Source: Clostridia bacterium (GTDB lineage Bacteria; CBDUZB01; JAGLHV01). Taken from it: a stretch of DNA of 17,648 nucleotides. The DNA lies in the NCBI GenBank assembly GCA_030595925.1, contig JAUVLC010000050.1:1-17648 (forward strand). The letters run 5' to 3'. How positions within the stretch are numbered: position 1 is the first letter of the stretch; each line of letters starts with the position of its first letter. A model generated the notes under the pieces. The model searched no databases. It saw only the letters and a list, made by a program, of their open reading frames with translations, and was not told the DNA's origin. This document shows, in pieces, positions 219 through 17,606 of this stretch. The position numbers were made by a program, and so were the translations under genes.

Positions 219-1073
219 TTACTCCCTTTTAAGTTTTCGCAAACGGTATCTTAAAATTACGGCTGATAGATTTATAACCAGCACTAACATTATTAGTACC
301 AGAGCCGTTGCATAAGCAATCGGCCGCACTTTAGTTATTGCATGGTGTTGAGTGGACATTATATAGAGATGGTAAGGTAAAGCCATAAATTGACTGAATA
401 GTGACTTCGGAATAAAAGGAAGGTAAAAAGCCGCCCCGGTAAAAAGAATGGGAGCTGTTTCCCCTGCAGCACGGGCCAAACCAAGAATCGTTCCGGTAAG
501 CATCCCTCCGGCAGCATAAGGCAGCACATTGGTTTTAATCATTTGCCATTTGGTGGCACCCAAAGCCAAAGAACCCTCCCGGTAAGAATTAGGTATATTC
601 TTTAAAGCTTCTTCGCTGGCAGTAATGGTCCAGGGAAGAGTCATTAATCCTAAAGTCAAACCAGCTGATAAAATACAAGTACCAAGATGCATTAACTGCA
701 CAAATAATATCACCCCGAATAATCCATACACTATAGAGGGAACCCCGGATAAATTTCTAATTGACATCCGAATAATCCGGGTTATTTTATTTTTTTTAGC
801 GTATTCATTCAAATATATAGCACACCCCATCCCCAACGGTATAGCTAAAACTGCGGTAATAACGGTTACCATAAAAGTGCCGATAATAGCGGGTAAAATA
901 CCACCTTCGGTCATTCCCTTACGAGGCATCGCAGTAAAAAATTCCCAGCTTATCTTACTTATCCCTTTACTAGTTAAATCATATAAAATAATTATCAGGA
1001 TTGCGCCGACAATCCCCACACACAATCTTAACAGATTAAAGCCCAATCTTTCCTGTAACTCTTTGTTTTTCAT
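219..1073 (-). CDS. pstA: Phosphate ABC transporter permease PstA
   Basis: This is one of the two inner-membrane permease subunits of the high-affinity phosphate importer. The 284-residue length is normal for PstA. It has an N-terminal membrane segment at about residues 15-33 and further hydrophobic segments throughout. The binding-protein-dependent permease loop (EAA-like) is visible as [24 protein letters not shown] at about residues 153-176, which contacts PstB. The adjoining [12 protein letters not shown] and [10 protein letters not shown] stretches are characteristic of PstA. The start ATG overlaps the pstC stop by 4 bp (ATGA), a standard coupling arrangement, and pstB follows 4 bp after its stop. 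PstA rather than PstC is assigned from the AGETAP motif and the gene order S-C-A-B. Confidence 0.95.
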
Positions 1074-1954
1074 CTTGTTTTCCTTTCGTGTCTGTGCAAA
1101 ATAATATCGGAAATCATATTGACAATAAAAGTTATCACGAATAATACCAGCCCAACACCAAAAAGGGCGTAATAATGAGTGGTATTATAAGGGACTTCTC
1201 CCAATTCAATGGCAATGGTAGAAGTCATTGTCCGCACTGAACCCAAAAAACTTTTGGGCATTGCCGGGGCACACCCTGTAGCCATAAGAACAGTCATTGT
1301 TTCCCCTATTGCCCTGCCCATTCCTAACATACATGCTGCTAATATCCCTGAACAGGCAGCCGGAATTTTTATTTTTACCAGGGTTTGCCATTTAGTTGCC
1401 CCCAGAGCCAGCGAAGCTTGCGTATACGATTTAGGAACACTTTTTAAAGCATCTTCGGACAAACTGATAATAGTGGGCAAGGCCATTATTGCCAAAAGAA
1501 CGGACCCATTTATGGCGTTAAGTCCATTATGTAAACCAAAAAGCCGGGCAATAAAAGGCCCTACCAGAAGAATGCCCAGGAAACCTATAACCACCGAGGG
1601 AATTCCCGCTAATATTTCAATAATGGGCTTAGCAATTTCTCTTACCCTGGGGCTGGCTAAATCCGTTAAGTAAGCGGCAGTTCCGATACCTAAAGGAATA
1701 GCAATTAAAAGTGCCCCAAAAGTAACCATTAAGGTACTTACCAGCATAGAGACAATCCCATAAGCTGGTTTAACATAAGAGGTGGGATTCCAATGTGATT
1801 TAAACAAAAATTCGGTTACTTTTATTTCTTCAAATCCGGGAAGAGCTGTAAAAACCAAAAGAGCAAATATTCCCAGTAGTATTAACACAACCAATAATCC
1901 ATTAAAGAAAAAGAGGCTATGGATTATTTTTTCTTTAAATTTATTCATCTTCAT
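1070..1954 (-). CDS. pstC: Phosphate ABC transporter permease PstC
   Basis: This is the partner permease of PstA in the inner membrane. The 294-residue protein opens with a short basic stretch and a strong membrane segment at about residues 14-37. It has the permease coupling loop [24 protein letters not shown] and PstC-like motifs EILAGIPSVVIGFLG and GRAIGETMTVLMATG. The ATG at 1954 is preceded by AAGGAG about nine bases upstream, which favours this start over the ATG two codons later. It sits 30 bp downstream of the pstS stop with no obvious terminator between them, so pstS and pstCAB are probably co-transcribed. Nothing is missing or unusual. Confidence 0.95.
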   Translation of the reverse strand: MKMNKFKEKIIHSLFFFNGLLVVLILLGIFALLVFTALPGFEEIKVTEFLFKSHWNPTSYVKPAYGIVSMLVSTLMVTFGALLIAIPLGIGTAAYLTDLASPRVREIAKPIIEILAGIPSVVIGFLGILLVGPFIARLFGLHNGLNAINGSVLLAIMALPTIISLSEDALKSVPKSYTQASLALGATKWQTLVKIKIPAACSGILAACMLGMGRAIGETMTVLMATGCAPAMPKSFLGSVRTMTSTIAIELGEVPYNTTHYYALFGVGLVLFVITFIVNMISDIILHRHERKTR

Positions 1955-1984
1955 AGCCTCTTTCTCCTTTTCTTTTTATTTCAC

Positions 1985-2863
1985 CTACATTCCTAAATTT
2001 TTATTGTTAAAATCGCTATATTCGGAAGGTATGGGGAAAAATCCTTCTTCCTCCACGATTCTTTGTCCCTTTTCACTCAATTCAAAAGCAATAAAATGAC
2101 TAATCGCACCTTTGGGTATGCCATTTAGATACTGATTAAGCGGACGGGTAATAGGATATTTTCCGCTTTTAACATCTTCAGCATCAAGCGGGCTAATATA
2201 TTTTTTTCCGGAAGCAGAAGCAACCTTTACAACAGTAAGTCCGGTTACTTTTTTTACATATCCTACTCCGACATAGCCAATGCCGCTAACATCCTGTTTT
2301 ACCGCTTCTACTATCTGTGCGTTACCATTCATGCGATTCATTTTTTGTGAATAATCCGCCTTTAATATTGCTTCTTTGAAGAAAACAAACGTTCCTGAAT
2401 TAGATTGTCTGCCGTAAAGAGTAATGGACATATCTTCTCCGCCGATTTCCTTCCAATTAGTAACTTCTCCACGAAATATTCTACCGAGTTCATCCTTAGT
2501 TAATTTGCTAATCGGATTTCTATCATTAACAATAACACTTAAACCATCCATAGCAATTACAATTCTTTTAGGTGTTATTTTTCTGCTGTTGGCTTGCTTT
2601 ATTTCTTTGGATTTCATCAAACGGGAAGCATTGGCAATATCACATTTTCCGTTAATCAATCCTGCAATTCCCGTACCCGATCCTCCTCCGGTTATGGCAA
2701 TAAACTTGCCTGGATTTTCTTCCATATATACCTCTGATAATCGTTGTACAAGATTAATCAGCGTATCCGAACCTTTTATTTGAACCATCTCCCGGGCATA
2801 AAGATTTGTAGTTAAAATCAGTCCCAACCCAATTCCTGCTAAAACCTGTAAACATCTTTTCAT
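1985..2863 (-). CDS. pstS: Periplasmic phosphate-binding protein PstS (PstS_2 / TIGR02136-like)
   Basis: This is the extracytoplasmic phosphate receptor that delivers phosphate to PstCA. The 292-residue protein begins MKRCLQVLAGIGLGLILTT with cleavage probably after NLYA, a Sec signal peptide without a lipobox. The mature part starts with the family pattern VQIKGSDTLINLVQRLSE. It continues with AITGGGSGTGIAGLINGKCDIANASR, the Ser/Thr-rich phosphate-coordinating segment, and later YGRQSNSGTFVFFKE and GIGYVGVGYV. The frame stays open 23 codons upstream to 2932, but the ATG at 2863 is chosen because a strong AGGAGG lies just before it and a signal peptide starts there. The longer form would also overlap the Pho box promoter. 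The gene heads the pstSCAB unit and is most likely induced by PhoB under phosphate limitation. Confidence 0.95.
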   Translation of the reverse strand: MKRCLQVLAGIGLGLILTTNLYAREMVQIKGSDTLINLVQRLSEVYMEENPGKFIAITGGGSGTGIAGLINGKCDIANASRLMKSKEIKQANSRKITPKRIVIAMDGLSVIVNDRNPISKLTKDELGRIFRGEVTNWKEIGGEDMSITLYGRQSNSGTFVFFKEAILKADYSQKMNRMNGNAQIVEAVKQDVSGIGYVGVGYVKKVTGLTVVKVASASGKKYISPLDAEDVKSGKYPITRPLNQYLNGIPKGAISHFIAFELSEKGQRIVEEEGFFPIPSEYSDFNNKNLGM

Positions 2864-2870
2864 TTTAAAT

Positions 2871-2880
2871 CCCTCCTTTT
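2871..2880 (-). promoter_or_regulatory. Strong ribosome-binding site that fixes the pstS start
   Basis: The minus strand reads AAAAGGAGGG, followed by seven bases and then the ATG at 2863. This near-perfect Shine-Dalgarno sequence shows that pstS starts at 2863 and not at the in-frame ATG at 2932. Confidence 0.85.
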
Positions 2881-2890
2881 TATTTGGTAA

Positions 2891-2924
2891 AGAATAACAT
2901 TTAAATGTGACAATTTGGTGACAA
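2891..2924 (-). promoter_or_regulatory. Pho box and -10 element of the pstS promoter
   Basis: On the minus strand two identical 7-mers, TTGTCAC, are separated by CAAA (2924 to 2907), giving the 11-bp period of a PhoB dimer site. The enterobacterial consensus is CTGTCAT-N4-CTGTCAC. Ten bases further on is TATTCT (2896-2891), a 4/6 match to the sigma-70 -10 hexamer. There is no -35 box, as expected where PhoB replaces it. The predicted transcript would start near 2884, leaving a leader of about 20 bases with the strong ribosome-binding site. The arrangement and the phoBR genes upstream support PhoB control. No binding data exist here. Confidence 0.8.
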
Positions 2925-2966
2925 CTTAGCAAATTTTATGTAAATTTTAGTTAAGCAGTATATCGT

Positions 2967-4199
2967 TTAAAACTTCAACAATAAATCAACCTGTAATATC
3001 TCTTCAGTTACTACCGGAGCGTTTATCTTTTCACTACAATAATAATCAAACCCTAAAATTACATTTTTTGCCAATGCATACTGTAATATTACTTCTGAAC
3101 CATTTACACCCGTTTTTCCGCCATAGAAATCAGAATCAGAAAATGTATCCAGCCATGCATCTTTTTCCAATTGGCGATAGGTATATTTAAATTGCCACTG
3201 CCCTTTCTTTTTTACTTTTTTATCTCCAAATTTTAATCCATAAAGATATCCCTCATTATCTTCGTCAGGGTCAAGATTAGAAGCATATCCACCGAATAAA
3301 GCAAAATAAGGCACATTACTACAAGATGTCTTAACTGCTAAATCCAATTCCGGATTAACGACATTATAATCATAAATTAAACAATCATTGCTATCCAGAC
3401 TATTCGTTTCTTCGGAATGGTCAAGTGAATCGCCTTTTACGTTATATGCATCATAAAAAGCAATTGCGGGCTTTAATGAAAAAGAATTACCTATTTTCCA
3501 AATTATCCCTGCCTGGCTAAAATACATCACAGGATCAGATATATCACTACTTGATTCATCCAAAATAAGACTTCCAAAACTTAGCAATAAATCTGTTTTC
3601 ATTCCGCAGGATTTATTAATGACAAAAGCACTCCCTTCAATGTTAATATCAGAATCCCACAAAAGATCGGAATTTTGTCGAATTATTGCTTTTCTCTTAG
3701 ATTTACCGCCATAAAAATCAAGCCATGCCTTAGGTGACCATTGCATATACGCATAATCCAAGCGTAAATCCGGAGTTTCAAAGGTGTTTCTCATAGTCTG
3801 ATTAGTCGACCGGGGATCCGTTCCCCCGGAACAAAATCCAAATCCTACTTTCACTTTATCTACTACATTTGCTTTTGCACCCAGTCTAAATCTGTATCTT
3901 CCCCGATGACGTTCAACCTTTGCCTCTTTTTTGTTCCATTGGTAACGTAAACGCAAATCCCCTTTGAAAGTCATTTTTTGAACCCAACCGGGAACACTGA
4001 CTAATTTACCCTGAGCCAATTCATTAGCTACTGTCTGTTTGGTTTCATCCATAATAATTTGTGCTTCTACCGGATTAAGTATTCCTTTATCTACCAGTTT
4101 ATTTACTAAAATCTCAACTTCACCGGCAAAAGAGTGGATTGCATTAAATGTAACTGTTAATAACATTCCTACCATTAAAATTAAAAATTTCGTTTTCAT
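2967..4199 (-). CDS. Outer-membrane porin, Porin_5-like; probably phosphate-starvation induced
   Basis: This is a predicted beta-barrel channel of the outer membrane. The 410-residue protein has a Sec signal peptide (MKTKFLILMVGMLLTVTFNA, cleavage probably near HSFAG). A short periplasmic helical stretch follows (ILVNKLVDKGILNPVEAQII), a hallmark of the putative-porin family PF16930. Alternating-polarity strands run from about residue 70 (TFKGDLRLRYQW) to the end. It terminates in VDLLLKF, with the C-terminal Phe used as an outer-membrane assembly signal. Basic and aromatic strands such as RHRGRYRFRLGA could line an anion-selective pore, but this is inference. It lies directly upstream of pstS and downstream of phoBR. 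A possible Pho box at 4799-4816 suggests the role of a phosphate-starvation porin, analogous to OprP/PhoE but from another family. AAAGGAGAT supports the start. Confidence 0.8.
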   Translation of the reverse strand: MKTKFLILMVGMLLTVTFNAIHSFAGEVEILVNKLVDKGILNPVEAQIIMDETKQTVANELAQGKLVSVPGWVQKMTFKGDLRLRYQWNKKEAKVERHRGRYRFRLGAKANVVDKVKVGFGFCSGGTDPRSTNQTMRNTFETPDLRLDYAYMQWSPKAWLDFYGGKSKRKAIIRQNSDLLWDSDINIEGSAFVINKSCGMKTDLLLSFGSLILDESSSDISDPVMYFSQAGIIWKIGNSFSLKPAIAFYDAYNVKGDSLDHSEETNSLDSNDCLIYDYNVVNPELDLAVKTSCSNVPYFALFGGYASNLDPDEDNEGYLYGLKFGDKKVKKKGQWQFKYTYRQLEKDAWLDTFSDSDFYGGKTGVNGSEVILQYALAKNVILGFDYYCSEKINAPVVTEEILQVDLLLKF

Positions 4200-4270
4200 T
4201 TTTTAAAATCTCCTTTAAATTATTTTTGTCTTCTGCTTCTTTATACCGCTGATCTTTTACATTTCCTTGT

Positions 4271-4278
4271 CCCCCCCC
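4271..4278 (-). repeat. Homopolymer G8 tract upstream of the porin
   Basis: There are eight consecutive C on the plus strand, which is G8 in the porin's sense direction, about 72 bases before the porin ATG. Such a run stands out in AT-rich surroundings. Similar tracts can vary in length by slippage. Confidence 0.6.
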
Positions 4279-4367
4279 TTTATTTTCAACTTTAAACTTC
4301 CCATAAAATATTTTTTTACTCTTACTGCCTACCCACCAATCTGTTTCCTAATGTAGTTGCCCAATTT

Positions 4368-4511
4368 AGAGATTGTTGAAAAAAGCTTTTTTGTCTCTGT
4401 CATTGCAAGCCCTAAGGGCGTGGCAATCTCATTCTTCGACGATAACAACGAGATTGCTTCGTCGCTTCGCTCCTCGCAACAACACCTTAGAGTAGTTTTT
4501 CAACAATCTCT
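4368..4511. mobile_element. MITE-like palindromic element with 16-bp perfect terminal inverted repeats
   Basis: The left end AGAGATTGTTGAAAAA (4368-4383) is the exact reverse complement of the right end TTTTTCAACAATCTCT (4496-4511). Inside, GCAATCTC and GAGATTGC form a second pair. They are flanked by GC-rich arms (CATTGCAAGCCC and GCTCCTCGCAAC), giving a nested, mostly self-complementary unit of 144 bp. It encodes no transposase. The internal string (GAGATTGCTTCGTCGCTTCG) belongs to a type of dispersed repeat that I recall from many low-GC and uncultivated-phylum genomes. No clear target-site duplication is visible. Confidence 0.7.
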
Positions 4512-4538
4512 TTATTGGGCGGAACAGATAATAATGAC

Positions 4539-4554
4539 GCCTCATAAATGAGGC
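4539..4554. repeat. Small perfect hairpin
   Basis: GCCTCAT and ATGAGGC are exact inverted repeats separated by AA. Neither strand has a following T-run of the kind that defines an intrinsic terminator, although on the minus strand it lies downstream of phoR. Its function is unknown. Confidence 0.45.
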
Positions 4555-4598
4555 AATTACAATTGCTTTAAAAATCAGAATCATGTCATTTCTGCGAA

Positions 4599-4708
4599 CA
4601 GACTGTGTCATAATCCCTTTTTTGGTAGTCGCAGGCTTTAAGCTCCGACGATAACGCAGGCTAAAGCCTGCGGCTACCTCATGAAAATATGAGTTGTGAC
4701 ACAGTCTG
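4599..4708. repeat. Palindromic repeat, copy A (GCAGGCTTTA family) with terminal inverted repeats
   Basis: The outer ends CAGACTGTGTCA (4599-4610) and TGACACAGTCTG (4697-4708) are exact inverted repeats. The inner arms GGTAGTCGCAGGCTTTA (4624-4640) and TAAAGCCTGCGGCTACC (4662-4678) pair with one mismatch. The core is shared almost base for base with the copy near 17520-17606. The common blocks are CCCTTTTTTGGTAGTCGCAG plus GCTTTA, and CGATAACGCAGGCTAAAGCC plus TGCGGCTACCTC. The loop differs, because copy B has extra sequence. It is non-coding and probably a non-autonomous mobile palindrome. Confidence 0.75.
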
Positions 4709-4798
4709 GAAAGCAGGAATCTAAAAAACATTTATACTTTAAATTTTTTTATTTCTAAGGAAAGTATATATTATCGGTGTGGCAAAAAAAGAGCATTT

Positions 4799-4816
4799 GT
4801 GTGAATTCTTTGTGAA
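4799..4816 (-). promoter_or_regulatory. Candidate Pho box upstream of the porin
   Basis: The minus strand reads TTCACAA-AGAA-TTCACAC, two near-identical 7-mers with an 11-bp period. This is the geometry of the pstS box, and TTCACA also resembles the Bacillus PhoP half-site TT(A/C)ACA. No good -10 lies ten bases downstream. The best one, TATACT at 4768-4763, is about 30 bases away, so activation would need a second site or another geometry. The distance to the porin ATG, about 600 bases with repeats between, also lowers confidence. Confidence 0.4.
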
Positions 4817-4944
4817 CTATTTTTTGTTAATTTGGATTTATAGAAAAGATTTGTCGAGGTAAAAAAGAGAAATATCTGTGTGTCTGAAACATATCGTTCT
4901 TAAAAAGACTATGTAAACATAAAGACAATAGAGTAGCGTATTTA

Positions 4945-6732
4945 CTACGCCTTAGGTAGAGTAAAACTAAAAACAGAACCCTGACCCAGGGTGCTTTGAA
5001 CAAAAACTTCTCCTTGATGAGCTTGAATGATGTATTTAACGATAGCCAGTCCTAATCCCGTTCCCCCTAATTCCCGGGAACGGGCTTTATCTACCCGGTA
5101 AAATCGTTCAAAAAGCCGGGAAATGTGTTCCTGAGCAATCCCACATCCGGTATCAGCAATATTTACCTGAATAAAGCCGTTCTTTTCATCAACTGAAAGA
5201 CTAATATCCCCTCCGTCCCGGGTATATTTAATGGCATTATCAATAAGATTAAATAAAACCTGGGCAATTCTTGTTTCGTCAATTAAAAGAGAACCCGGCT
5301 TTTTAGGAATACTTGTTTTAATAGTAATGGATTTATCCCGGGCTTGTTTATTTAATCCGGAAACAATGCGTTTAATTATGGGAGAAATAGCACATAGTTG
5401 TAAATTCATTTTGAATTTGCCCGATTCTATTCTGGATAAATTAAGTAAGTCGTCAATCAATCTTGCCAGACGGTCGATATCAGTATAAATTATTTTTAAA
5501 AAATCCTTAGCATTATTTTTATCTTCCAGTGCTCCGTCCAATAATGTCTCGGCATAACCTTTAATGCTGGCTACAGGGGTCCTTAATTCATGAGAAACAT
5601 TAGCCACAAAATCCTGCCGAACCTTCTCCAGTCGCCTCAAATCGGTTATATCATGAAATACTAAGACTGCTCCTTCCGTTTCATTTTCCCGAACAACTGG
5701 TGCTGCATGAACCAATAAAATTTTTTCTTCCGGAAATAAAACAGATATTTCACGGGATTCAACCCCTTGTTTTAACTTTAATGTGTTATCAACCATTTCC
5801 TGAATTTCAATGTTTCGAAGTATTTCCAATGGTTTTTTATCTACAAATTCGTCTTTAACTTGTAATAAATCTTTTAGTGCCCGGTTCATCAATAAAATAG
5901 TTCCCTTTATATCAACAACCATTACCCCTTCAAACATACTTAAAAGAATCGCTTCAAATCTTGATTTATTTAAGTTAACTTCATTAATTTTCAATTTAAT
6001 TTGTTCAGACATATAATTGAAAGCCTTAGCTAAGTCACCTAATTCATCTTTGGTTAAATTTAAAATTCTTTTAGAGAAATCACCTTTAGCTATCTTTTGG
6101 GTTAACAAAGACATCTTTTTTATTGGTTGAGAAATAAACATAGAAGCAGCAAAACTAATCATAATTGCCAGAAAAAAAGCAAATAAAAGAGAAACAATCA
6201 ACAATTTCTTTAAATGATTGGATATTAATTCAATTTCAGATAGCGGCATAGATAATCTGATTATTCCCTCTGGTTTATTTCGACCAATAGTACTGGCAAC
6301 ATAAAGCATATCTTTCTTTACCGTGGTACTGAAACGTCTGCTTTCTCCCATACCGGAATATAGGGCCTGTTGAATCTCAGGCCGATAAAGATGATTTTCC
6401 ACTTCACCCAGAATATCCCGGGTTAGTTCCGAATCAGCTACAACTATTCCTTCCGGATTGATAATAGTAACTCGCAAATTTAAACTATCAGCAATTTTAT
6501 GTGAAAAATCATCTAATTCCTGAGATTGAAGGTTCTGAATATAGTGTTGTTCTATAAATGATTTGCATAAAGCAGTTTCTTTAAGCAGATTTGTTTTAAT
6601 CCGTTGGTAGGTATTGTCCTTTAAGTTGCTATTCAGACACAAATAAATCCCAAAAAGGATAATGGCGAGAATTATAGTAAAGATAATTGTAATTTTATAA
6701 TGGATATTAATTCTTAAATAATTATTTTTCAT
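4945..6732 (-). CDS. phoR: Phosphate-regulon sensor histidine kinase PhoR
   Basis: This is a membrane histidine kinase expected to phosphorylate PhoB when phosphate is scarce. Numbered from the ATG at 6732 (595 aa), it has membrane segments at about residues 13-33 and 178-200. They enclose a roughly 145-residue extracytoplasmic Cache-like sensor (VTIINPEGIVVADSE). Next come HAMP (about 201-253), PAS (about 258-365, EGVMVVDIKGTILLMNRA), HisKA with the phospho-acceptor His about 381 in VSHELRTP, and HATPase with N-box NLIDNAIKYT, G1 DTGCGI and G2 GGTGLGL. A TTG two codons earlier at 6738 is possible, but ATG is preferred. The start overlaps the end of phoB by 11 bp. The large sensor is the Gram-positive-type architecture, unlike the short E. 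coli PhoR. The adjacent pst genes support the phosphate role. Confidence 0.9.
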   Translation of the reverse strand: MKNNYLRINIHYKITIIFTIILAIILFGIYLCLNSNLKDNTYQRIKTNLLKETALCKSFIEQHYIQNLQSQELDDFSHKIADSLNLRVTIINPEGIVVADSELTRDILGEVENHLYRPEIQQALYSGMGESRRFSTTVKKDMLYVASTIGRNKPEGIIRLSMPLSEIELISNHLKKLLIVSLLFAFFLAIMISFAASMFISQPIKKMSLLTQKIAKGDFSKRILNLTKDELGDLAKAFNYMSEQIKLKINEVNLNKSRFEAILLSMFEGVMVVDIKGTILLMNRALKDLLQVKDEFVDKKPLEILRNIEIQEMVDNTLKLKQGVESREISVLFPEEKILLVHAAPVVRENETEGAVLVFHDITDLRRLEKVRQDFVANVSHELRTPVASIKGYAETLLDGALEDKNNAKDFLKIIYTDIDRLARLIDDLLNLSRIESGKFKMNLQLCAISPIIKRIVSGLNKQARDKSITIKTSIPKKPGSLLIDETRIAQVLFNLIDNAIKYTRDGGDISLSVDEKNGFIQVNIADTGCGIAQEHISRLFERFYRVDKARSRELGGTGLGLAIVKYIIQAHQGEVFVQSTLGQGSVFSFTLPKA

Positions 6733-7411
6733 CAGCAAATCTATACCCCACCCCTCTCACCGTTTCAATCAACTCTCCTACCTTACCTAATTTTTGTCGT
6801 AGACGCTTAATATGTGTATCTACTGTGCGGGTAGTAATTTCAGAGGATATATCCCAAACATCATCTAACAACCTATCCCGTGATTGAACCCTGCCTTTTC
6901 TTTGCACAAGAAGAACCAAAAGTTTAAATTCTATAAGAGTTAATTCTATTTCTTTTTTATTAACAGTTACTTTATGACGAGAAATGTCAATGGCTAATTT
7001 ATCCACAATTAATATACTTTGAGGGGGCTTTGTTTTTTTGTTTCGTTTCAAGATTGCTTTTATTCTCAAAATTAATTCCCGCACACTGAACGGTTTAACT
7101 ATATAATCATCTGCACCCAGCTCAAACCCGACAATCCTATCTATTTCTTCACCTCTGGCGGTTAACATAATGATGGGAATAACCGCTAATTTTTTATCTT
7201 GTTTTATTTGTTTACAAACCTGAAGTCCATCCATCTTAGGGAGCATTATATCTAATATAATCAAATCAACGGGTTGTTTGTCTAAGGTTTTTAATGCAAT
7301 TTCACCGGTTGGAGCTGCTACGCAGTCAAAACCGGCCTTTTCCATATTATACTTGATAAGTTTGGAAAGATGTTTATCGTCCTCAACAACTAAAATTCTT
7401 TCTTTAGACAT
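6722..7411 (-). CDS. phoB: Phosphate-regulon response regulator PhoB (OmpR/PhoB family)
   Basis: This is a DNA-binding response regulator of 229 residues. The receiver domain (about 1-120) has the acidic pair DD at 11-12, phospho-acceptor Asp54 in LIILDIMLP, the Thr of MLTARG and Lys of IVKPFS. The C-terminal winged helix (about 130-227) shows IELTLIEFKLLVLLVQRKGRVQSRDRLL and RTVDTHIKRLRQKL, the recognition-helix region of the OmpR/PhoB family. The order regulator then overlapping kinase, next to a porin and pstSCAB with a good Pho box, makes PhoB the likely identity over other OmpR members. The start lies 5 bp after the methyltransferase stop, with only a weak AG-rich ribosome-binding site, so coupling is likely. 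Confidence 0.9.
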   Translation of the reverse strand: MSKERILVVEDDKHLSKLIKYNMEKAGFDCVAAPTGEIALKTLDKQPVDLIILDIMLPKMDGLQVCKQIKQDKKLAVIPIIMLTARGEEIDRIVGFELGADDYIVKPFSVRELILRIKAILKRNKKTKPPQSILIVDKLAIDISRHKVTVNKKEIELTLIEFKLLVLLVQRKGRVQSRDRLLDDVWDISSEITTRTVDTHIKRLRQKLGKVGELIETVRGVGYRFADEK

Positions 7412-10943: not shown

Positions 10944-11420
10944 TTATAGATACAAATCCTTTTCTATCGCGTAAAAATTCTTAAAAACATCGCGTCTTCC
11001 AATTACTCCGACCATTTTAGTCCCTTCAAAAACAGGAAAAGTATGTGCGTTTTTGTATTTCATTAAGGTAAGAATTTCATCCAGGGTTGTGTCTTTTTTT
11101 ATCTTAATAACTTCGGTGGACATAGCAAATTTTACCGTTGGATTAGAAATTGGTTCCATTCCGTTTTTTACAACCTCTCCGGACTTTATCATATCCATCA
11201 CCAGGAAAAGATCGGTATTAGTAATTAAACCGATTATTTTACCTTTCTTCCCTATTACCGGTATCCCATTTATTTTTTCTTTAATCATGATTTCCGCAAT
11301 ATCAGCTAACGTTGTAGTTTCCGTAGTGGTAATAACGCGTTTAGTCATAATATCTTCAGCTTTAATTGCTTTTAATTTCTTGGTTAAATCTTTTAATCTG
11401 AATTTTGTGTTTTTTATCAT
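10944..11420 (-). CDS. Tandem CBS-domain protein
   Basis: This is a 158-residue cytoplasmic protein consisting only of a CBS pair (a Bateman module), which in other proteins senses adenine nucleotides or SAM. CBS1 spans about residues 22-77 (EDIMTKRVITTTETTTLADIAEIM, then GIPVIGKKGKIIGLITNTDL). CBS2 spans about 97-150 (KFAMSTEVIKIKKDTTLDEIL, then HTFPVFEGTKMVGVIGRRDV). No catalytic or DNA-binding domain is attached, so the partner is unknown. A strong AAAGGAGG precedes the ATG. It is 51 bp downstream of the GH65 fusion gene and 50 bp upstream of the protease gene, all co-directional, so it could be read in one transcript with either. Confidence 0.85.
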   Translation of the reverse strand: MIKNTKFRLKDLTKKLKAIKAEDIMTKRVITTTETTTLADIAEIMIKEKINGIPVIGKKGKIIGLITNTDLFLVMDMIKSGEVVKNGMEPISNPTVKFAMSTEVIKIKKDTTLDEILTLMKYKNAHTFPVFEGTKMVGVIGRRDVFKNFYAIEKDLYL

Positions 11421-11471: not shown

Positions 11472-14324
11472 CTACTGAGAACAAATATCGTCTTTATTTA
11501 AAATATTTTTTACTTCGTTTAAAAATAAATCTACAGAATATGGTTTAACAAAAAAGATGTCTGCTCCCATTATTTCAAATATTCTTTTCATTGCAGCTTT
11601 ATTGCTTTGCATAGCAATAGGTATTTTTGAAAGCCGCTTCCTCTTTTTTATTTCTTTAAAAAATTGAAAACCGTTCATTCCTCCTTGAAAAATAATAGCA
11701 GATATAATTAAATCCACCCATTTTGTTTCTAAAACATCTAAAGCTTCTTTACCCGTGTGGGCACAATCTATTAAATAACCCATAGCCTGTAATCTTGTTT
11801 TTAGTATTTCCGTTTGAGTAATATTACCATCAACAATTAATATCCTCTTTTGCACCATTTTCAAATTTCCTTTCCCCTTAATATTTTTTTCAAGTGAAAT
11901 ACTATATTTTTTTCTAAAAAGGAAATGATACAATTTTCCATGAATTTTAACGGGAACAGTAAGTGATTTTGATGGAGAACCGGATATAAAAATTGTAAGT
12001 TGTTCTTTAGTTATAAACAAAGAAAACCAATTTCCTTTATAACAAAATTTAAACCTGAGACTTTGCCAATTAGAAGGAAGGTTAGGAGTAATGTTAATTA
12101 TCTCTTCCCCCATATATATCCCGGCGAATCCCCTTATCACCATATCAATGGAACCACCCATTATCCCGGTATGAATACCCTCAACAGTTGTTCCTCCCTG
12201 AACATCATAAATATCTGATTTGAGAACACCGGAAAACCACTGCCATCCTTCTTTTGACCTTCCTAATAAATAAGCAACGTAACAGTGAACAATTTTACTC
12301 AAACTTGAACCATGGGAAGTTCTTTTTACATAATAGTCGTAATTTCTTTTCAAAATATACCTATCAAACCTGTATCCTAACCGATGAAACAAATCTTTTA
12401 TTTCAAACAAAGGAAATAAGTAAAAGAGCATCAAAACATCCGCTTGTTTGGCCGCCTTATAGTCGTTTGGTGATTTTCCTTCTGCTTTTAAAATTCGATC
12501 CATGCGCTCTACTTTGTCATATTTTCTCCTGTAAGCATCCCAATTTAATTCTTTTAACTTAAAATATCCGTCAAACTGACCAATAATGCCTTCCTTATTA
12601 ATAATTATATTCATCTTGCGGGTAATATCTTTCCATCGCAGTAATTCCATTTGATCAAGTTTCAATTTCTTAATTATTCGAGTTCGATGCTGTGGAGGTA
12701 AAATAGCAATAACTTCTTTTGCTTTAAGTAATGTCCGCACAATTAATAAATTGGTATAAGCATTGTCTTTAAATCCGGGTTTTTGTGAATTAGAAACTTT
12801 TTCGTGAAATTCATCAGGGCCCATAAGTCCATGGGTATGATATCTCCTGTCATCAACGTCATATTGGGCAAGACTGGCTCCAAATTGGGCAATTGACAGT
12901 AACATCTCAGCCCCATAGTCTATAAGAAAATCCAGGTCATTAGATTTTTTCCAATATTGCCATACATTATAAGCAATAGCAAAGGAAACATGTCTTTGCA
13001 CATAAGTATGATCAGGTCCCCATTTACCCGACATTGGATTCAAATGAATAAACTGAGTTTTTTCCTTACCGTCAAAACCGCTTTGCCAGGGAAACATTGC
13101 TCCCTTATATCCGCTTTTTTTCGCAGATTTCCTGGCAGGTATAAGACGCCGGTATCTATATAAAAGTAATGCTTTTGATATTTCCGGATTATGAAAATCA
13201 AAAAAAGACATAACAAAAAGTTCATCCCAAAAAATATGCCCCCGGTAGGCCTCTCCATGTAACCCTCTGGCCGGAAGTCCGGCATCAATCTTAGTGTTAT
13301 GAATAGAGGCTGTTTGCAATAAATGGAAAATATGCAGCCTTAGTGCTTTTTGGGAAAAAGCATCATCCTCAATTTGAATATCAAATTTTTTCCACAAATC
13401 TTTCCATGCACATTGATGAGTTTCGAAAAGCGTGTTAAATCCAGGCGATTTTTTTACTGAATTAATAGCGGAAGAAAGCGGATTAATAACATCTTTATCC
13501 TTGGAAGTATAAATACTAACAATTTTTTCAACTTTACAGTGTTGTTGTTTACGTACGAATACTTTAAATTCCTGCTCAATTTTTTCCTTTTTTTTAGTCG
13601 CAATTTTATTTGCCGATTTAACTTTTTTACCGTTAATAGATACCAGATTTTTTGCCGCCTGGCAAATTTCAATCTTTGATTGAGTTGTTTTCATTGCCAG
13701 ATAAACCCCATTATTATCAAAGCTCCCCAAAGAGGAGGACATCAAATGCTTAGAGTTTAATTGTCTATATCTGGGGACACCGGTATTTTGTACTGTTCCG
13801 TCAAGTGCTGATTTTATAGTTATGAAACCTTCGTAATTTTCAGGAATAATGGTATATTTAATTGCGGCACAATGCGGATCTTCTAAATGAACGATTCTTT
13901 CTGTTTCAATGGTGGTTATTTGTCCGTTATCATCATGAATTCGAACTTTTCTAATAAGAACTCCCCGGCGAAAATCAAGTTGTTGATGATAAAAAAGAAT
14001 TTTACTTGTGGAAAAAGAAACCCAGTCCCCTTTTTCAGTTCTGAAAGTTAAAGGTAACCAGTTGGGACAATTCACAAAATCTTCATTTAATATTTTTTTC
14101 CCGGCAATAAGGGTCGGCAATTCATTATAAACTCCGGCAATGTAAGTGCCCGGATAATGCACCCTGGAAGCGGAAGATTCATAAATAGCTCCCCTGACCC
14201 CTAAATAACCATTTCCCAGGGTACAAAGTGCTTCTCTCAAGCCCTCCTGCACGGGTTGAAAGCGGCTGTAAGATAATTTCCAGGTAAAAGTTTTACTAAT
14301 ATCTTCATTCACTTTTTCAGGCAT
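11472..14324 (-). CDS. GH65 glycoside phosphorylase/hydrolase fused to a degenerate receiver domain
   Basis: Counted from the ATG at 14324 this is 950 residues. Residues about 10-815 are a GH65 protein, cytoplasmic, the family of maltose, trehalose and kojibiose phosphorylases. Visible marks are ALCTLGNGYLGVRGA in the N-terminal beta domain, HGEAYRGHIFWDELF in the (alpha/alpha)6 barrel, catalytic general acid Glu about 505 in MGPDEFHE, and EGIHTGIMGGSIDM in the phosphate-binding area. FWDELFV and YRYRRLIPARKSA resemble the clade next to beta-phosphoglucomutase in actinobacteria. Residues about 825-950 form a CheY-like domain that has lost the phospho-acceptor Asp (Ala876) and one of the acidic pair (DG), but keeps KP. 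An internal ATG at 11858 with AAAGGAAA upstream could start the receiver separately. A TTG at 14342 is possible, but ATG with AAAAGG nine bases upstream is preferred. It overlaps the HAD gene by 8 bp. Confidence 0.88.
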   Translation of the reverse strand: MPEKVNEDISKTFTWKLSYSRFQPVQEGLREALCTLGNGYLGVRGAIYESSASRVHYPGTYIAGVYNELPTLIAGKKILNEDFVNCPNWLPLTFRTEKGDWVSFSTSKILFYHQQLDFRRGVLIRKVRIHDDNGQITTIETERIVHLEDPHCAAIKYTIIPENYEGFITIKSALDGTVQNTGVPRYRQLNSKHLMSSSLGSFDNNGVYLAMKTTQSKIEICQAAKNLVSINGKKVKSANKIATKKKEKIEQEFKVFVRKQQHCKVEKIVSIYTSKDKDVINPLSSAINSVKKSPGFNTLFETHQCAWKDLWKKFDIQIEDDAFSQKALRLHIFHLLQTASIHNTKIDAGLPARGLHGEAYRGHIFWDELFVMSFFDFHNPEISKALLLYRYRRLIPARKSAKKSGYKGAMFPWQSGFDGKEKTQFIHLNPMSGKWGPDHTYVQRHVSFAIAYNVWQYWKKSNDLDFLIDYGAEMLLSIAQFGASLAQYDVDDRRYHTHGLMGPDEFHEKVSNSQKPGFKDNAYTNLLIVRTLLKAKEVIAILPPQHRTRIIKKLKLDQMELLRWKDITRKMNIIINKEGIIGQFDGYFKLKELNWDAYRRKYDKVERMDRILKAEGKSPNDYKAAKQADVLMLFYLFPLFEIKDLFHRLGYRFDRYILKRNYDYYVKRTSHGSSLSKIVHCYVAYLLGRSKEGWQWFSGVLKSDIYDVQGGTTVEGIHTGIMGGSIDMVIRGFAGIYMGEEIINITPNLPSNWQSLRFKFCYKGNWFSLFITKEQLTIFISGSPSKSLTVPVKIHGKLYHFLFRKKYSISLEKNIKGKGNLKMVQKRILIVDGNITQTEILKTRLQAMGYLIDCAHTGKEALDVLETKWVDLIISAIIFQGGMNGFQFFKEIKKRKRLSKIPIAMQSNKAAMKRIFEIMGADIFFVKPYSVDLFLNEVKNILNKDDICSQ
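11848..11875 (-). promoter_or_regulatory. Possible internal translation start at the GH65-receiver junction
   Basis: The minus strand reads GGGGAAAGGAAATTTGAAA directly before the in-frame ATG at 11858 (MVQKRILIVDGN). An SD-like AAAGGAAA lies about 7-8 bases upstream. It could produce the receiver domain alone in addition to the fusion, or be a remnant of a formerly separate gene. Confidence 0.4.
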
Positions 14325-15930
14325 GAGAAATAACCTTTTCAAATAATTTTTTTACTTCCTCCGTTGAAGATAATTGAAAATCCGCAGCTGATTCTCTGTG
14401 TTCATCAGAAACTAAAATTCCAAATCCTCTTGTACGCAATGTTCTAAAAACATATTCGTCGGTAACATCATCTCCTATGTAAACCACACAAACATCCTGC
14501 CAGGAAACTTTTAAAGCATCCATAATCCATCGTACTGCTTTACCTTTATCCCAGTCAATATCAGGCAAAATTTCGAAAACTTTTTTCCCGCTCATTAACC
14601 GAAGTTCTTTTTTCTCTTGAACGATTTTATTAACAGTTTCACTAATTAGGGACAAATATTGTTGAGCAACTAAACGATAATGCACAGCTACACTAAACTT
14701 TTTCTTTTCGATTATTATCCCCGGCACATCCCCCAATTTTCGGGAAAGTTCTTTAATTACCTGAGAAATAACCGGCACAATTTTTTCAACTTCGGGCTGC
14801 ACCATTGAAAATCCGGGACCCATAATATCAAACCCGTGGCTTCCGGCATAAAAAATCCCTTTAATCCCTACAAGTTTTTCTACGTCTTCTCTCATTCTCC
14901 CGCTAACAATAGCCACAGTATATTTTTCAGAAAGATGTTTTATCGTAGCCCTCATTTCCGGGGACAAAACCGCCAGTTCCGGCCGTTCTACAATGGGAGT
15001 CAACGTACCATCGTAATCTAGAAATATAACTTTTTTTTTGTTAAAAAAAGTTTCTTTATTAGTCTGATTATAGTGAGGATTAATAATTACATCTTTTCCA
15101 TTCGTTGTATTTTCGGATAAATTATTTATTGTTTCTTCGCTATTTTGCAAAAATGAAGGCAAGGATAGCGGTTTTCGATGAAACCACTTTTCAATATACT
15201 CAATGCTTATTTGCGCTAAATCAGAAACAACAATATCTGCTCCGTTTTCAAGAAGATCCGATTCATTGTTATGTCTGGCAACACCAAGAATTAATCCGAA
15301 TCCTCCGTTTCTACCTGCCTGAATTCCTGAAATAGCATCTTCCACAACAACCGCTTTAGCTGGGATCGTCCCTAAATTATGTGCCGCTTTAACAAAGATA
15401 TCTCCCTCCGGCTTGCCTTTAAGCTTGAGTTGAGCAGAAACTACTCCGTCAATCCTCGTTTCAAACAGTTTTTCCAAACCTACTGATTCCAAAATAATTT
15501 CACAATTTCTTGAAGAGGAGGCAACCCCTACCCGAACACCTATCTCTTTTAAAGTTTTTATAAACTGAATTGTAGTAGGATAAATCTCTGCACCTTTTTC
15601 TTTAAGTAATTGACGAAATAAGCCGTTTTTTTTATTTCCAATCCCACAAATTGTTTCTCTGTCCGGGGTATCGGACGGATCACCAAAGGGAATATCAATT
15701 TGGCGTGACTCAAAAAAACTTCTAACCCCTTCATATTTAGGTTTGCCATCAACAAAAGGAAGATAATCGTCCTCATGGGTAAACTCGCGAAAAGGCTCGT
15801 TATCTTTTTTTTCTCTTTGTTTCAAATATTGGTCAAAAGTAGCTTTCCATGCTTTGGAATGTAAAATAGCTGTTTTAGTAACGATACCATCCAGGTCAAA
15901 AATAACAGCATCAAAAGAATATTTTTTCAT
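14317..15930 (-). CDS. Bifunctional beta-phosphoglucomutase-like HAD / trehalose-6-phosphate phosphatase
   Basis: This 537-residue cytoplasmic protein has two HAD domains. Residues about 1-245 are beta-phosphoglucomutase-like: DAVIFDLDGIVTKT with nucleophile Asp12 and acid/base Asp14, then VASSSRNCE, KLKGKPEGDIF and VVVEDAISGIQAGRNGG. It would turn beta-glucose-1-P into glucose-6-P. After a low-complexity linker (about 255-298), residues about 299-535 are an OtsB-type trehalose-6-P phosphatase: VIFLDYDGTLTPI with Asp305 and Asp307, IVSGRMRED, AGSHGFDI, WDKGKAVRWIM and IGDDVTDEYVF. Both active sites look intact. The two activities flank the GH65 step encoded by the next gene, whose ATG overlaps this stop. 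AAAGGAAT precedes the ATG at 15930, and a sigma-70-like promoter lies at 15969-15997. Substrate assignment is from family knowledge. Confidence 0.9.
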   Translation of the reverse strand: MKKYSFDAVIFDLDGIVTKTAILHSKAWKATFDQYLKQREKKDNEPFREFTHEDDYLPFVDGKPKYEGVRSFFESRQIDIPFGDPSDTPDRETICGIGNKKNGLFRQLLKEKGAEIYPTTIQFIKTLKEIGVRVGVASSSRNCEIILESVGLEKLFETRIDGVVSAQLKLKGKPEGDIFVKAAHNLGTIPAKAVVVEDAISGIQAGRNGGFGLILGVARHNNESDLLENGADIVVSDLAQISIEYIEKWFHRKPLSLPSFLQNSEETINNLSENTTNGKDVIINPHYNQTNKETFFNKKKVIFLDYDGTLTPIVERPELAVLSPEMRATIKHLSEKYTVAIVSGRMREDVEKLVGIKGIFYAGSHGFDIMGPGFSMVQPEVEKIVPVISQVIKELSRKLGDVPGIIIEKKKFSVAVHYRLVAQQYLSLISETVNKIVQEKKELRLMSGKKVFEILPDIDWDKGKAVRWIMDALKVSWQDVCVVYIGDDVTDEYVFRTLRTRGFGILVSDEHRESAADFQLSSTEEVKKLFEKVISHA

Positions 15931-17467: not shown

Positions 17468-17498
17468 CGTATAATTAGCTCCTGTTGCACAAAGCCCA

Positions 17499-17606
17499 TG
17501 TCAGGTCGGAGGACAGATTGTATCACAATCCCTTTTTTGGTAGTCGCAGGCTTTAGCCTGCGAAAAATCTCCAACGATAACGCAGGCTAAAGCCTGCGGC
17601 TACCTC
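17499..17606. repeat. Palindromic repeat, copy B (GCAGGCTTTA family)
   Basis: This is a second copy of the element at 4599-4708. The blocks CAATCCCTTTTTTGGTAGTC and GCAGGCTTTA, and CGATAACGCAGGCTAAAGCC plus TGCGGCTACCTC, are identical to copy A apart from one base next to the first block. Copy B has a longer loop containing another GCCTGCG. The left end, TGTCA-N9-ACAGATTG, keeps the spacing seen in copy A, but the right inverted end is not recognisable. No coding frame. Confidence 0.75.

Follow-up and report, generated by a model that had tools for sequence, protein, structure and literature searches.

A GH65 phosphorylase-like protein fused to an aspartate-less receiver domain, next to a CBS-pair gene

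The fusion gene and its predicted enzyme

The stretch of DNA analyzed here, referred to as the window (17,648 nt), carries a long open reading frame that joins a glycoside hydrolase family 65 (GH65) protein to a receiver domain. The features of the frame and of the genes on either side are as follows.

14317..15930, minus strand: bifunctional HAD protein, N-terminal beta-phosphoglucomutase-like (beta-PGM) and C-terminal trehalose-phosphatase (OtsB); Pfam HAD_2/Hydrolase and Trehalose_PPase
14324-11472, minus strand: fusion ORF, 950 aa, from ATG at 14324 to the stop at 11472, no internal stop
Fusion aa 19-275: Glyco_hydro_65N (Pfam, above cut-off)
Fusion aa 329-726: Glyco_hydro_65m (Pfam, above cut-off)
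Fusion aa 741-799: Glyco_hydro_65C (Pfam, above cut-off)
Fusion aa 828-937: Response_reg, PF00072 (Pfam, 50.6 bits against a curated cut-off of 30.2)
11928..14324, minus strand: GH65 part (aa 1-799), predicted trehalose-6-phosphate (T6P) phosphorylase (Pfam, alignments, Foldseek)
11844..11927, minus strand: linker (aa 800-827), formed by the last part of the GH65 beta domain and what used to be the start region of the receiver gene
11514..11843, minus strand: pseudo-receiver (aa 828-937; Pfam), with D13 changed to G833, D57 changed to A876, and S907 and K927 kept
CheY equivalents in the fusion: D832 (D12), G833 (D13), A876 (D57), S907 (T87), K927 (K109)
10944..11420, minus strand: CBS-pair protein, 158 aa, next gene after the fusion; Pfam CBS in two stretches, ATG preceded by AAAGGAGG

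A sequence-only reading of the window had described one uninterrupted frame running from a GH65 protein into a receiver. Our analysis bears this out, with all four Pfam domains above cut-off in the 950-aa frame, which can be extended upstream to a TTG at 14342. Assignment to GH65 rests on matches to the N-terminal, catalytic and C-terminal domains and on Foldseek matches to six GH65 structures, 9lb6 being the best match to the whole fusion model (TMt 0.94). The receiver assignment combines the Pfam score with secondary structure in (beta-alpha)5 order in the AlphaFold2 model and with Foldseek matches of the C-terminal domain to receivers (e.g. 1nxo, TMt 0.83). AlphaFold2 modeled the GH65 part confidently and the receiver moderately (pLDDT about 57-79), with a loose linker between them (pLDDT under 50 for aa 814-824).

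Alignment to CsKP identifies E505 as the general acid and K626, H718 and S673/S674 as the phosphate site, residues characteristic of GH65 phosphorylases (PMC8626586) as opposed to hydrolases; the second phosphate-site Ser is Thr in most relatives. The motif for T6P-phosphorylase specificity is DQGQDE, at CsKP positions 64, 392, 394, 402, 416, and 585 (PMC8537180). Five of these positions match in the window protein (D82, Q414, G416, Q424, and E615), and CsKP 416, in a part of the alignment with gaps, corresponds to either W435 or D438.

The HAD gene, which shares its last 8 nt with the beginning of the GH65 gene, also precedes GH65 in nearly all of the relatives for which upstream sequence exists. 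Against NCBIfam, its product scored 177.9 bits for TIGR00685 (cut-off 68) and 150.4 bits for TIGR02009, just under the cut-off of 153.35. The window's genome also has, at another site, a gene for an OtsA-type synthase (GT20). The specificity residues, the beta-PGM/OtsB neighbor, and the genomic OtsA together point to T6P as the substrate. The earlier idea that the fusion couples disaccharide breakdown to signaling is modified in this respect, as motif and operon make T6P more likely than a free disaccharide. T6P made by OtsA would then have two fates, either dephosphorylation by the OtsB domain or cleavage by GH65, with the resulting beta-Glc1P passing to the beta-PGM domain for conversion.

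Known GH65 T6P phosphorylases (EC 2.4.1.216), such as Lactococcus lactis TrePP and Caldithrix abyssi CaGP, share with the window protein the GH65 domains, the general acid and phosphate-site residues, five of the six specificity residues, and the beta-PGM neighbor, whereas the window locus, whose enzyme activity is predicted, has in addition a pseudo-receiver at the C-terminus and a CBS gene. To our knowledge, T6P phosphorylases have not been described with a receiver, and our literature search found no paper on a GH65 protein with a receiver, nor anything closer. In mycobacterial OtsB1 (Rv2006), HAD, OtsB, and GH65 parts are joined together, whereas in the window the HAD-OtsB protein has its own gene, which overlaps that of GH65, and the GH65 C-terminus is extended by a receiver.

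Fused and separate forms among relatives

The window's phylum is sampled by three genomes, all of one genus. The congener G001 encodes the same fusion (956-aa ORF, 90% aa identity), with dN/dS relative to the window of 0.15 for GH65 and 0.10 for the receiver. In the third congener the contig ends inside GH65, and the assembly holds neither a receiver nor a CBS orthologue. Between the window and G001, dS is lower in the receiver (11514-11843; 0.15) than in the CBS gene (0.27) and GH65 (0.35), values based on few sites. All three congeners also have a second GH65 gene without a receiver, which in the window's genome (G000:C93:26896-29124, L038) is an 800-aa frame with 35% identity.

Outside the genus, a search for the same architecture recovered the full fusion in 7 of 384 sampled genomes from the phylum of the locus L040, which belongs to the named Omnitrophota relative Ca. 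Omnitrophota BS750m-G32; identity over the C-terminal query was 50-58%. An eighth Omnitrophota fusion came from the order to which one of the seven belongs. Relative to the window, these eight show GH65 identities of 55-64% and receiver identities of 43-57%. The fused total is thus ten genomes, with frames of 956-963 aa that run on without a stop, against eight loci with separate genes, so that the arrangement that would have spoken against a genuine fusion, a stop codon between the domains in all relatives, is not what relatives show. That an assembly or sequencing error joined two genes is practically out of the question: all genomes are probably metagenome assemblies, but independent genomes already refute it, given the eight fused Omnitrophota at such GH65 divergence and the substitutions between the window and G001 that span the junction and preserve the frame.

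In a sample of 386 genomes, the majority from distinct bacterial families, the fusion occurred only in the window and G001, by which a broad bacterial architecture was rejected; one further genome in this sample (G476) has GH65 and receiver genes side by side. Long ORFs from other phyla (1053-1409 aa) match the query over the GH65 part only, and among 128 genomes from the order of L040's genome the GH65/receiver pair is present in L040 only.

At the eight separate loci, a stop closes the GH65 gene and the receiver gene follows next, with a spacing that in seven ranges from an ATGA overlap (L117) to 83 nt; the eighth is L155. The closest relative outside the genus, L040, is one of these (GH65 67%, receiver 61% identity). 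Its GH65 gene stops at TAG 6463, and its receiver gene starts in a different frame at ATG 6498, preceded by AAAGGGGG. In DNA alignments with L040 and G001, indels in the window lineage removed the stop and joined the frames, and the linker codons still include the former start codon and a piece of the SD. Of the earlier suggestion that two genes merged by losing a stop codon, the merger therefore stands and the simple stop loss falls for this lineage, since the L040 frames differ and indels were needed.

Fused and separate forms are interleaved in a tree of 57 GH65 proteins, where supported branches force at least two fusion/fission changes and the best tree needs five. Separate forms are deepest in the receiver tree (modest support), suggesting that separate genes are probably ancestral. 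The pseudo-receiver would then descend from a stand-alone gene adjoining GH65, and in several lineages it would have been joined to the GH65 C-terminus via small indels where the gene ends lay close together or overlapped. The window GH65 groups with L040 and L117 (support 97/93), both from genomes of another phylum, which may reflect either horizontal transfer or inheritance between sister phyla. Several genomes within the GH65-tree clade lack a receiver.

Two further GH65 genes in these relatives are irregular. The Ca. Theseobacter exili gene (L041, 1717-4116) is interrupted near 2082 by a stop or frameshift, possibly a sequencing error, and one Omnitrophota genome (L064, 7-858) has a second, partial GH65 gene upstream of its cassette (32% identity).

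Receiver residues and the adjoining CBS gene

The residues reported earlier for the receiver, namely Ala in place of the acceptor Asp, an Asp-Gly acidic pair, and a retained switch Ser and Lys, were all recovered in our alignments. With G833 and A876, the domain departs from canonical phospho-receivers in both acidic pair and acceptor Asp, and A876 places it among aspartate-less receivers (ALRs), which make up about 4% of receivers (PMC4395418). These residues support the view that the window receiver cannot be phosphorylated in the usual way.

Loss of the acceptor Asp extends to 16 of 18 family members. Site 57 is Ser in seven, Ala in six, Gly in two, and Glu in one; Asp is retained in two (L104 and L117), and the family is therefore not uniformly dead. 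Site 13 is Gly in 16/18, Lys109 is kept in 17/18, and S/T87 in 18/18. Seven of the eight separate receivers adjoining GH65 likewise lack the acceptor Asp, L040 having the same Ala. Because stand-alone and fused receivers are alike in this respect, the loss of phosphotransfer characterizes the family, and fusion was rejected as the cause of site loss. Compared with CheY, and with PhoB also included, all 18 receivers have one extra residue and no Pro after beta3, suggesting common descent.

The receivers of L112, L117, and L155 run on, by eye, into a second stretch resembling a tandem degenerate receiver. In L155 (4592-5374), a stand-alone 260-aa tandem receiver adjoining GH65 has Glu at the acceptor site, possibly a built-in phospho-mimic.

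The window domain resembles ALRs, whose archetype is RitR, in having a receiver fold without the acceptor Asp, an altered acidic pair, and a kept Lys, and differs in the extra residue and missing Pro; the outputs of ALRs are mostly regulators (PMC4395418), whereas the partner here is a glycoside phosphorylase. Since Asp-less receivers were already known, what is new in the fusion is the output and the genomic context; the domain itself belongs to an established kind.

The sequence-only reading had missed that the next gene, for a CBS-pair protein, accompanies the receiver with hardly an exception. The first repeat of its product contains GLITNTD (GxxTxxD motif). Whether fused or separate, 17 of the 18 loci with a receiver have a CBS gene directly downstream, compared with none of the 33 loci that lack a receiver and have at least 700 nt sequenced on that side (Fisher p 1e-12, with no correction for kinship). 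Kinship weakens these statistics, as the tree contains only two independent supported contrasts, both concordant, and almost always so in random pairings. The single exception, L112, has a divergent receiver without a CBS gene. CBS is absent wherever the receiver is absent, including L114, L136, and L141, which are nested near receiver-bearing genomes, and no CBS match with >44% identity was found anywhere in the 17 genomes whose cassette has no CBS (16 receiver-less and G317).

CBS pairs commonly bind adenine nucleotides, and the protein encoded here is likely an adenine-nucleotide sensor. Of possible partners for the pseudo-receiver, the CBS protein, which may bind it, is the strongest candidate, because its gene is gained and lost together with the receiver.

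Possible role of the pseudo-receiver

We favor, with modest confidence, a reading of the locus as a four-part T6P cassette, consisting of beta-PGM/T6P-phosphatase, GH65 T6P phosphorylase, pseudo-receiver, and CBS-pair protein, in which the receiver serves as a phosphorylation-independent docking or allosteric module. The kept fold and switch residues, the lost acceptor, and purifying selection point to a binding role without phosphorylation. A phosphorylation-independent interaction module had been proposed before; we retain it as the best reading and add the CBS protein as a candidate partner.

Most likely, a receiver family that had mostly lost its phospho-acceptor already would have supplied the phosphorylase with a module to which the CBS protein, a likely nucleotide sensor, could dock, and the module may affect enzyme activity. 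Fusion would fix a 1:1 ratio of enzyme to receiver. A more specific version, in which the Asp-less receiver is the docking site by which the CBS nucleotide sensor controls the T6P phosphorylase, in an arrangement repeatedly fused or split and shared by two phyla, is put forward tentatively and we regard it as rather doubtful.

The pseudo-receiver of Caulobacter ShkA is similarly an allosteric module within an enzyme, where it is controlled by a nucleotide (PMC7010744). ShkA is a histidine kinase under c-di-GMP control and, unlike the window protein, involves neither a CBS partner nor a sugar enzyme.

Most receivers control transcription or signaling outputs. Here, a receiver that has lost phosphotransfer is attached to a carbohydrate phosphorylase in uncultured bacteria, and a likely nucleotide sensor is inherited along with it. 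Were the proposed role confirmed, it would show a phospho-switch turning into a plain allosteric subunit, provide a natural series of fused and separate forms for testing that change, and suggest how Omnitrophota-like bacteria control T6P.

The receiver could instead be a passenger, left decaying after close or overlapping neighboring genes were merged by chance indels and the fusion was tolerated. Such decay would fit an acceptor site that is lost and variable, the faster evolution of the receiver than of GH65 in the fused Omnitrophota, and its absence from several genomes in the clade, but is difficult to reconcile with the low receiver dN/dS, with retention of the fold, S/T87, and K109, with maintenance of the fused form across divergent genomes (50-58% identity), and with the tight CBS association. 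We consider it unlikely.

The internal ATG noted earlier (11858-11856, in frame) is present with the SD-like AAGGGGAAAGGAA upstream, and it corresponds exactly to the start codon of a relative's stand-alone receiver gene, supporting a possible leftover internal start. The receiver might thus act mainly as a stand-alone protein even when fused, an alternative consistent with retention of SD and ATG in both the window and G001 and with the strong SD of fused L106, L107, and L164 (-11.5 kcal/mol). The window site is only moderate, however (-6.0 kcal/mol, equalled at 12% of in-frame sites), and fused L104 and L110 have no SD and a lost or moved ATG, so that dual products cannot be the general rule. 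They are possible in the window, but as the main mode of receiver action we judge them improbable.

An equally poor prospect is that the receiver places or oligomerizes the phosphorylase, through contacts between receivers or by docking to some unrelated protein, with CBS coupled by operon inheritance only. Receivers commonly dimerize, Asp-less ones included (RitR, PMC4395418), and the kinship effect on the CBS statistics leaves room for this alternative; the absence of CBS where the receiver is absent, even in the nested L114, L136, and L141, argues against it.

Elsewhere in the window, positions 219-7411 of the same strand hold what appears to be a phosphate-regulon-like cluster (Pst-like permeases, PstS-like and porin-like proteins, a sensor kinase, and a PhoB-like regulator), whose end is some 3.5 kb away from the CBS gene. 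A repeat of ~100 nt occurs in two copies (4582-4680 and 17497-17606; 84% and 95% identity in two blocks), has palindromic GCAGGCTAAAGCCTGC arms, and resembles a small mobile or REP-type element.
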